NCBI RefSeq assembly: GCF_003671765.1
Contig: NZ_QPIB01000043.1
Span: 124,001-188,000 of the forward strand
Length of the DNA stretch: 64,000 nt
From: Xenophilus sp. E41
GTDB taxonomy: Bacteria; Pseudomonadota; Gammaproteobacteria; Burkholderiales; Burkholderiaceae_C
Reading direction: 5' to 3'
The position numbers and the translations under genes are program-made. Under the pieces are notes generated by a model, which saw only the letters and a program-made list of their open reading frames with translations, ran no database searches and was not told the origin of the DNA. Below are positions 19,538-53,695 of the stretch, piece by piece; the stretch's first letter is position 1; every line of letters starts with the position of its first letter.

Positions 19538-19548
19538 GTGCTAGAGTC
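19538..19548 (+). promoter_or_regulatory. Candidate extended -10 promoter for the aroG leader
   Basis: TAGAGT at 19542-19547 matches four of six -10 bases and is preceded by TGC (19539-19541), an extended -10. No good -35 stands at 17-18 bases; TTGGCG at 19512 is too far upstream. Transcription would begin near 19554, only a couple of bases before the leader ATG. Confidence 0.45.
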
Positions 19549-19555
19549 TCGCCCC

Positions 19556-19630
19556 ATGCCTGCCTCGCGCGCTTTCTACTTTGCCTACTTTTGGTTCCCG
19601 GACTCCGGCGGACGAGTGGCGCGCGCGTAA
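19556..19630 (+). CDS. Aromatic-rich leader peptide of aroG (24 residues)
   Basis: A complete short frame from ATG 19556 to TAA 19628. Residues 6-14 read AFYFAYFWF: four Phe, two Tyr and one Trp among positions 7-14. In a GC-rich genome such a run is unlikely by chance. It lies before a terminator hairpin and the DAHP synthase gene, the classic arrangement of an attenuator leader such as E. coli pheL. The initiation signal is weak: an AGAG nine bases upstream, or leaderless initiation. Confidence 0.85.
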   Translation: MPASRAFYFAYFWFPDSGGRVARA

Positions 19631-19688
19631 ACAGCAGACAAGCCGAACCCCTCGAGAACCGCCGGTGCGAAAGCCCCGGCGGTTTTTT
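19605..19688 (+). promoter_or_regulatory. Transcription attenuator (antiterminator/terminator switch) of aroG
   Basis: CCGGCGG at 19605-19611, inside the leader reading frame, is identical to the 3' arm core of the terminator. It can therefore pair with the terminator's 5' arm (19659-19665). CGAG at 19613-19616 can also pair with CTCG at 19651-19654, giving about 11 antiterminator pairs. A ribosome stalled early on the aromatic codons would leave 19605-19616 free to form it; a ribosome reaching the stop codon would hinder it. The pairing is seen; the switch is inferred from known amino-acid attenuators. Confidence 0.75.
19657..19688 (+). terminator. Rho-independent terminator in the aroG leader
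   Basis: A nine-pair perfect stem (AACCGCCGG at 19657-19665 with its complement at 19676-19684) around a ten-base loop. T residues run from 19683 to 19688, so the stem end and the U tract overlap. It lies 50 bases before the aroG start, hence an attenuator rather than an end-of-gene terminator. Confidence 0.88.
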
Positions 19689-19738
19689 CTTGGCCGTCCC
19701 GAAATCACCCACCACAACAACCCAGAGGAAGAACGAGC

Positions 19739-20863
19739 ATGAGCCCCAAAGCCACCCCCGGCACCAGCGAATCCTGGTATGCGCAACCCGTCGAGAAGAC
19801 CAGCCAGACCGACGACCAGCGCATCAAGGACATCAACGTGCTTCCTCCGCCCGAACACCTCATCCGCTTCTTCCCCATCGGCGGCACGCCAGTGGAACGG
19901 CTGATCGGCCAGACCCGCCACGCCATCCACAACATCATGGCCGGCAAGGACGACCGGCTGCTGGTGGTGATGGGGCCCTGCTCCATCCACGACCCGGCCG
20001 CCGCGCTGGACTACGCGCGGCGCCTGAAAGCCGAGCGCGAGAAGTACGCCGACACGCTGGAGATCGTGATGCGCGTGTACTTCGAGAAGCCGCGCACGAC
20101 AGTGGGCTGGAAGGGCCTGATCAACGACCCCTACCTCGACGAGAGCTACCGCATCGACGAGGGCCTGCGCATCGCGCGCCAGCTGCTGATCGACATCAAT
20201 CGCCTGGGCCTGCCGGCGGGCAGCGAGTTCCTCGACGTGATCTCGCCGCAGTACATCGGTGACCTGATCGCGTGGGGCGCCATCGGCGCGCGCACCACCG
20301 AGAGCCAGGTGCACCGCGAGCTGGCCTCGGGCCTGTCGGCGCCGATCGGCTTCAAGAACGGCACCGACGGCAACATCCGCATCGCCACCGACGCCATCCA
20401 GGCGGCCGCACGTGGCCACCACTTCCTGTCGGTGCACAAGAACGGGCAGGTCGCCATCGTGCAGACCAAGGGCAACCGGGACTGCCACGTGATCCTGCGC
20501 GGCGGCAAGGCGCCCAACTACGACGCGGCCAGCGTGGCGGCGGCCTGCGCCGACCTGGAGGCCGCCAAGCTGCCGCCCACGCTGATGGTGGACTGCAGCC
20601 ATGCCAACAGCAGCAAGCAGCACCAGAAGCAGGTCGACGTCGCCAGGGACATCGCGGGCCAGATCGCCGGCGGCAGCCGCAGCGTCTTCGGCGTGATGGT
20701 CGAGAGCCACCTGCAGGCCGGCGCCCAGAAGTTCACCCCCGGCAAGGACCGCATCGACGCGCTGACCTACGGGCAGAGCATCACCGACGCCTGCCTGGGC
20801 TGGGACGATTCGGTGGGCCTGCTGGAGACGCTGTCGCAGGCGATCAAGCAGCGCCGCGGCTGA
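19739..20863 (+). CDS. aroG: 3-deoxy-7-phosphoheptulonate (DAHP) synthase, class I
   Basis: First enzyme of aromatic amino-acid synthesis, joining phosphoenolpyruvate and erythrose 4-phosphate. The 374-residue protein has VVMGPCSIHDP with the metal-binding Cys, the MRVYFEKPRTTVGWKGLINDP substrate block, WGAIGARTTESQVHRELASG, GFKNGTDGN, and the late DCSHANSSKQ and GVMVESHLQAG motifs. Length and motifs match the AroF/G/H type. GAGGA at 19725-19729 is the ribosome site. Control by the upstream leader seems likely; which end product feeds back on the enzyme cannot be read from sequence. Confidence 0.95.
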   Translation: MSPKATPGTSESWYAQPVEKTSQTDDQRIKDINVLPPPEHLIRFFPIGGTPVERLIGQTRHAIHNIMAGKDDRLLVVMGPCSIHDPAAALDYARRLKAEREKYADTLEIVMRVYFEKPRTTVGWKGLINDPYLDESYRIDEGLRIARQLLIDINRLGLPAGSEFLDVISPQYIGDLIAWGAIGARTTESQVHRELASGLSAPIGFKNGTDGNIRIATDAIQAAARGHHFLSVHKNGQVAIVQTKGNRDCHVILRGGKAPNYDAASVAAACADLEAAKLPPTLMVDCSHANSSKQHQKQVDVARDIAGQIAGGSRSVFGVMVESHLQAGAQKFTPGKDRIDALTYGQSITDACLGWDDSVGLLETLSQAIKQRRG

Positions 20864-53618: not shown

Positions 53619-53695
53619 TGGTGGCGCTTCACGGACTCGAACCGCGGACCTGTGGATTATGATTCCATCGCTCTAACCGACTGAGCTAAAGCGCC
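53619..53695 (-). tRNA. tRNA-Met (anticodon CAT), with encoded CCA
   Basis: Read on the minus strand, a 77-base cloverleaf: acceptor GGCGCTT/AAGCGCC, D arm GCTC/GAGC, anticodon loop ATCATAA with CAT, T loop TTCGAGT, and encoded ACCA end. The acceptor begins with a paired G-C, so this looks like the elongator; Ile2 is the other CAT option. One A-C mismatch sits at the top of the anticodon stem. Confidence 0.92.

Follow-up and report, generated by a model that had tools for sequence, protein, structure and literature searches.

A proposed ribosome-mediated attenuator upstream of the DAHP synthase gene in Xenophilus sp. E41 and other Burkholderiales

How is the entry step of the aromatic pathway adjusted to the supply of phenylalanine, tyrosine and tryptophan in a cell with one DAHP synthase? 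The question is raised by a locus in the window, i.e., the whole 64,000-nucleotide stretch of Xenophilus sp. E41 DNA that was analyzed; all positions given below are window positions on the forward strand. The gene at 19739..20863 encodes a type I DAHP synthase of the AroFGH family (TIGR00034, 538 bits; PF00793, 316 bits). This is the regulated gene in our proposal and the one DAHP synthase found in the genome, since the genome search returned the self match alone. The type II DAHP synthase family, PF01474, has no match in this genome, and two further PF00793 matches were not counted as DAHP synthases because by eye they look like KdsA. Among the best 80 of 588 matches, the closest named relative of the gene is that of Xenophilus aerolatus (98% identical).

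Upstream of the gene, the sequence-only reading had placed a 24-codon frame with the residues FYFAYFWF at positions 7-14, and this frame is present as described. The leader peptide ORF (19556..19630), MPASRAFYFAYFWFPDSGGRVARA, starts with the ATG at 19556 and ends with the TAA at 19628-19630, as judged from the sequence, its translation and its relatives. The control codons TTC TAC TTT GCC TAC TTT TGG TTC (19574..19597) are aromatic in seven of eight cases, and position 19574 marks the sole run of eight codons with 7/8 F/Y/W among 115,846 stop-free runs of that length in the six frames of the 64 kb. NCBIfam and Pfam searches with three leader peptides gave no match at E up to 10. Just before the ORF, the sequence and its relatives show an extended -10 promoter element, TGCTAGAGT (19539..19547), with no clear -35 by eye.

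The leader is followed by an intrinsic terminator, which as a whole spans 19657-19688 and is recognized by arm complementarity, predicted folding and a T run. The arms 19657-19668/19673-19684 are 92% complementary, and the nine unbroken pairs are formed by 19657-19665/19676-19684, that is, the 5' arm AACCGCCGG (segment 3, 19657..19665) and the 3' arm CCGGCGGTT (segment 4, 19676..19684); pair counts in relatives agree with both arms. Six T residues (19683..19688) complete the structure and are kept in an alignment of 83 near relatives (A1). The predicted fold of 19655-19690 has an energy of -22.2 kcal/mol (z -4.95), and 0 of 200 shuffles are equally stable; for 19556-19700, z is -2.79. Within the leader ORF, the sequence CCGGCGG (segment 2, 19605..19611) carries the same letters as 19676-19682 and is the full complement of 19659-19665, so this part of segment 3 is common to the terminator and a candidate antiterminator. 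For the RNA 19605-19665, folding predicts the antiterminator helix; its energy of -24.7 kcal/mol, which 4 of 200 shuffles reach, compares with -20.2 kcal/mol for the terminator alone. In this fold, CGAG at 19613..19616 can pair with CTCG at 19651..19654 and extend the helix. Arm complementarity and the two folds thus bear out the earlier claims of a nine-pair terminator with a T run, of a leader copy of its 3' arm able to act as antiterminator and of a CGAG/CTCG extension. On the CGAG side, G79, A80, G81, A82 and G83 (numbering of the first A1 sequence) are at least 90% conserved in A1. In addition, CGCGCGC (segment 1, 19566..19572) is a candidate for a protector hairpin with 19619-19625, as predicted by pairing and folding. 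The whole RNA 19556-19665 is no more stable than its shuffles (z 0.30). A simple sigma-70 promoter and terminator scan listed neither the leader promoter nor the terminator. At the gathering threshold, the sole Rfam hit in the 64-kb window is a tRNA at 53622-53695, so the leader matches no family; when E values up to 10 are allowed, sroD is the best match between 19480 and 19760, with 17.5 bits against a threshold of 50.

These parts very probably make up a ribosome-mediated transcription attenuator of DAHP synthase. From their presence, spacing and conservation we infer the following course. With the extended -10 promoter, the RNA would begin at the leader AUG or beside it, and a ribosome would translate the leader while RNA polymerase proceeds. 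When one of the charged aromatic tRNAs (Phe, Tyr or Trp) is scarce, the ribosome would stall on codons 7-14 and leave the arm 19605-19611 free to pair with 19659-19665, with the help of CGAG/CTCG. Formation of the antiterminator would preclude the terminator, and DAHP synthase would be transcribed. When aromatic tRNAs are charged, the ribosome would reach the stop codon, the arm would be covered or held in a local hairpin, and the terminator 19657-19688 would form and end transcription.

The spacing of the parts agrees with this model. We searched for the leader copy with a GGCGG-like pattern, a choice that favors its pairing; the pattern was not found in 6 of 105 near leaders, which were dropped (L007, L077, L095, L098, L101 and L103). 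In 96 of the 99 others, the first nucleotide of the last aromatic codon lies 9-16 nt upstream of the arm. Given the usual ribosome footprint, this spacing suggests that a ribosome stalled on most of the control codons leaves the arm free. A footprint of that size may cover the start of the arm during a stall on the very last control codon, and in Xenophilus a ribosome at the stop codon (19628) would cover the arm, which ends at 19611, only in part. When the RNA before the arm was omitted, to mimic cover by a stalled ribosome, folding of the remainder up to where the terminator 5' arm ends gave an antiterminator of at least five pairs in 97 of 97 cases, with median energies of -20.6 kcal/mol for the antiterminator and -16.5 for the terminator alone. 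With the whole ORF included and no ribosome, the antiterminator was predicted in 29 of 97, and the arm was paired within the ORF in 50 of 97.

An attenuator should be kept in relatives, and the sequence-only reading had named a lack of conserved aromatic codons or stems there as grounds for refutation. Both are kept. We compared 110 DAHP synthase loci, i.e., 30 from the window's family with the window's own locus included (the best 30 places; 198 of 200 family genomes gave a match) and 80 named loci (the best 80 of 588 matches). Among these loci, which are nearest relatives by design and are not all independent because some repeat each other (e.g., L026 and L062), an upstream aromatic-rich ORF (5 of 10 residues F/Y/W/H) is found at 106 of 110, the window's own included. 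No leader was found upstream at L106 (Cupriavidus) or at L109 and L110 (both Polynucleobacter), and the fourth locus without the ORF, L075, has hardly any upstream DNA. The ORF is followed by the terminator 3' arm, with a common GGCGG core and T run, in 105 of the 106 (L054 is the exception); at L018 and L059 the 5' arm is off by one base. The distance from the leader ATG to the end of the terminator is 121-151 nt. The terminator core hardly varies in A1, where the leader copy also shows strong conservation.

Among 105 annotated leader peptides from the near loci, Phe is present in 105, Tyr in 104, Trp in 96 and all three in 96; their 724 F/Y/W codons comprise 457 for Phe, 168 for Tyr and 99 for Trp. 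Seven core columns of 97 distinct peptides hold 676 residues, of which 595 are F, Y or W; the 81 others include 26 Ala and 14 His. His occupies aromatic positions in some leaders (e.g., L095, L101 and L103). Where F is the majority residue of a core column, it is replaced 134 times, 72 of them by Y or W. Judged by these replacements, what is kept in the leader peptide is aromatic identity and not one sequence. As a separate observation, TTT encodes Phe in 64% of leader cases; the DAHP synthase genes at these 105 loci use it in 20%. At one locus titled Solimonas (L057), the leader is accompanied by a DAHP synthase 83% identical to that of the window and no tldD match lies nearby, which looks like transfer of gene and leader from a Comamonadaceae relative or a mislabeled record.

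The element is not confined to the nearest relatives. A covariance model built from A1 was run on 399 genomes of the order (E ≤0.001, strict filters), and 104 of them gave a match. Of 108 matches, 100 stand before DAHP synthase, spread over 14 families, and 94 of these 100 have at least five F/Y/W within nine stop-free codons; the other eight matches are not linked to DAHP synthase, seven of them being partial and one full-length (L198). A DAHP synthase match was present in 119 of 150 order genomes. Outside the window's family (f1), 79 leaders were read, with Tyr in 70, Trp in 34 and all three aromatic residues in 30, and the aromatic order varies between families (e.g., FYFYFF, FFFFFYF and FFSFYFY). 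One of the families, f32, holds genomes resembling Polynucleobacter and may be Burkholderiaceae. A second covariance model matched 25 of 369 genomes of the class; in 7 of the 25, a full-length match stands before DAHP synthase, and four of these seven (L220-L223, families f63 and f68) belong to other orders. Two full-length class-level matches, L226 and L234, are not before DAHP synthase. This recurrence of ORF, terminator and DAHP synthase neighbor, together with the conserved arms, supports the full attenuation design that had been proposed.

As a negative control, 60 DAHP synthase upstream regions were used, 59 from part of the genomes without a leader match plus that of the second DAHP synthase of one genome, G355. 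An aromatic leader and the common terminator occur together in none of the 60. The second model, run with filters off and E up to 0.5, gave 12 matches in these regions, the best at 27 bits; nearly all are to the 3' part of the model, and one whole-model match of 16 bits is on the opposite strand. Four control regions (L250, L266, L270 and L296) contain nine-residue stretches with 5 or 6 aromatic residues. These were rejected as leaders, the run of L250 being inside the upstream gene and those of L266, L270 and L296 adjoining or overlapping a terminator downstream of a gene taken for dksA by eye; the f22 terminators also follow a gene taken for dksA by eye. Another control region, L289, has the terminator but lacks an aromatic run and might represent a decayed leader. 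The leader is absent within 500 nt of the sampled DAHP synthases of families f2, f5, f6, f14, f18, f21, f25, f26, f33, f47 and f51. In G355 (f32), with DAHP synthases at places C15 and C170, the leader precedes the copy with 63% identity and is missing from the copy nearer to that of the window (76%); the leader does not go with a single paralogue.

Do the RNA arms vary together, as the earlier reading had expected of the stems? Within the window's family they do not: RNAalifold on A1 found the terminator alone, with a covariation term of -0.03, because the stems there hardly vary. Between families they tend to do so, mainly at one column, with both partners. We aligned 97 sequences to the model (A2), 14 from near loci and 83 of the 95 matches outside f1 (L197, L200, L207-L209, L211, L213-L215 and L217-L219 are omitted). 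For the terminator, 95.7% of cells are paired and 45 show changes on both sides compared with 16.3 in shuffles; for the antiterminator, the values are 91.1% and 34 compared with 17.3. These counts exceed all 500 shuffles for both helices, in an alignment where the covariation comes mainly from one column and related sequences are counted many times. When the partner is slid along, pairing falls to 17-61%. Counted as pairs with a change on both sides, the antiterminator has 2 (1.6 in shuffles; 302 of 500 as high) and the terminator 3 (1.9; 107 of 500 as high), and further pair types give 351 and 370 of 500 shuffles as high for the two helices. Since the cells exceed the shuffles and the counts of pairs and pair types do not, the covariation in this alignment is real but narrow.

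The column in question lies in the terminator 5' arm and is mostly A or G, and both alternative partners tend to co-vary with it. In A2, the terminator pair at this column is AU in 53, GC in 35 and other in 9 sequences, and the antiterminator pair is UA in 36, CG in 31, UG in 1 and other in 29. Pairing is non-standard in 29 of 97 sequences at this antiterminator pair and in 24 of 96 at the neighboring pair. Read as leader/5' arm/3' arm, 31 of 97 sequences have CT/AG/CT, 19 of 97 have CC/GG/CC and 47 have other combinations; some leader copies do not follow the 5'-arm base (e.g., L145 and L206). The base varies within f4, f10, f20 and f32, which indicates that it has changed more than once.

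These data also bear on whether the peptide itself could be the sensor. In nascent-peptide arrest, of which TnaC is an example, the leader peptide itself would halt translation on sensing a free aromatic compound or some other signal, and the RNA switch would follow. The peptide is indeed rather conserved in the window's family, where F makes up 95 of 95 residues at one core column and W 81 of 97 at another. Between families, however, neither the order of the aromatic residues nor their flanks stay constant, and the conserved GG that follows the cluster is accounted for by the RNA arm, whose other frame reads PAV (L016 and L029). Moreover, the leader copy is in ORF frame 1 in 84 of 99 leaders and in frame 0 in 15 of 99; an antiterminator arm in two reading frames suggests that the RNA rather than the peptide is selected there. 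We therefore consider arrest by the nascent peptide very improbable and retain the attenuator that reads tRNA charging.

The start of the leader RNA deserves separate attention. At 102 of 105 near loci, a TGnTAnnnT motif is followed by the leader ATG at a distance of 6-9 nt. An SD-like motif was sought 4-10 nt before the start codon and was present for 86 of 105 DAHP synthases and 0 of 105 leaders. Since the -10 element is this close to the ATG and no SD-like motif precedes it, the leader mRNA is probably leaderless, with a predicted start at or a few nucleotides from the ATG. Outside the family, TAnnnT 6-9 nt before the ATG is found in f4 (8/9), f10 (6/8), f13 (9/10), f23 (8/10) and f44 (3/5) and in 0 of 33 leaders of f3, f8, f11, f20 and f32; an SD-like motif precedes the leader in 4 of 9 cases in f4 and 2 of 8 in f11. 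These differences in -10 spacing suggest that leaderlessness depends on the lineage.

A leaderless RNA of this kind recalls trpL of Sinorhizobium meliloti, a Trp leader before trpE(G) in an alphaproteobacterium. That leader-peptide RNA, rnTrpL, is reported to have its 5' end at the ATG and to have roles in trans (PMC7298713). In Xenophilus, such a 5' end is predicted from sequence. By analogy, the terminated leader RNA or its peptide might act mainly in trans, as rnTrpL and peTrpL do, with a secondary link to DAHP synthase. Such an account is very unlikely for the present element, as its order-wide matches adjoin DAHP synthase in the proportion given above, as expected of a cis element. A plain intergenic terminator of tldD with a chance aromatic ORF is hardly credible: tldD does lie directly upstream in the window, and a tldD-like match is found at 89 of 110 near loci (it is absent at 21, some for want of DNA), but a promoter-like element and an ORF whose conservation contradicts chance lie in between, and the element is also present at loci with no tldD match (e.g., L023, L066 and L069). 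An sRNA gene was considered and rejected as well.

How does the attenuator compare with known systems? Leaders with several control amino acids are already known, as in ilvGMEDA. The enterobacterial trp, pheA, pheST and ilvGMEDA leaders respond to a single amino acid or, for ilv, to the branched set, and the genes they control are end-branch or synthetase genes. In the portions of the literature consulted, these leaders are described with control codons followed by antiterminator and terminator arms in the same order as here. The original study of the AroR leader of Corynebacterium glutamicum is reportedly that of Neshat et al. (2014); a comparative study is attributed to Vitreschak et al. (2004). 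Excerpts on AroR describe a Phe-Tyr-Phe leader before aroF, where Phe limitation raises transcription by ribosome stalling (PMC11802643, PMC4046766); the response is to Phe and not to Tyr, as Tyr supply is without effect (PMC11802643). Like AroR, the Xenophilus element has a short leader peptide with Phe-Tyr-Phe before a DAHP synthase gene. Unlike AroR, which belongs to an actinobacterium and for which these excerpts name no Trp, it has aromatic residues at seven of eight codons, and the two are likened by description. By this analogy, AroR is the closest functional precedent. Joint sensing of all three aromatic amino acids, as the sequence-only reading had proposed, is best regarded as a hypothesis: Phe codons predominate in the near leaders, Trp is absent from more than half of those read outside f1, and AroR is said to answer to one of the two amino acids in its Phe-Tyr-Phe. 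A regulon study places the E. coli DAHP synthase genes aroF and aroH under TyrR and TrpR and covers, for the aromatic pathway, the regulons of both regulators in gammaproteobacterial lineages (PMC5343134). The accessible part of a survey of premature terminators does not name aroG or DAHP (PMC2965389), and our literature search found no report of this leader in Burkholderiales, which is not proof of its absence from print. The type of mechanism is already known, and a leader before DAHP synthase in Burkholderiales would be a further case of it.

Other sites with a similar appearance were noted. In the genome of the window, L313 (1225-1298; G000:C22 near 771,150) has TGTTAAAGT 10 nt before an ATG, the leader MKQMSLALLLIPYGRRR and then the inverted repeat ACGGCCCGTT...AACGGGCCGT. 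The gene downstream is leuA-like, scoring below the leuA_bact cut-off, and is followed by a gene above that cut-off (L312). The sequence of L313 suggests an attenuator for leucine with a similar leaderless layout. The full-length off-target match L198 (G114:C1, reverse strand) combines the leader MSNFSISLLLDVRHGQVW, with TGTGCTACATT just before the ATG, and a terminator, and by eye the gene downstream reads as leuA. A further site in the window's own genome, L311 (1209-1292), about 130 nt before trpE, has the leader MFVHHVIQTGRGSRGAWPWRTPATLIA with TACACT 9 nt before the ATG, followed by inverted repeats with no clear T run; its sequence makes it a possible Trp leader.

A broader idea, which we put forward tentatively, is that one leaderless peptide might combine three tRNA charging states, with Phe weighing most, Tyr less and Trp least, in an OR gate on the single DAHP synthase of the cell, and that the leaderless design might represent a general class of attenuators in these bacteria (DAHP synthase, leuA and perhaps trpE). 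In this class, the -10 element would be fixed to the ATG, the ribosome would load on the first nucleotides of the RNA, and translation and transcription would start in step.

Collectively, we propose a concrete cis-acting control over entry into the aromatic pathway, one that many families in the order of Xenophilus would have in common. If the proposal is true, the output of DAHP synthase would be tunable in these hosts through changes in the leader codons. The element would also offer a natural system in which to study the weighting of three amino acids by a single leader and the coupling of leaderless translation to transcription.
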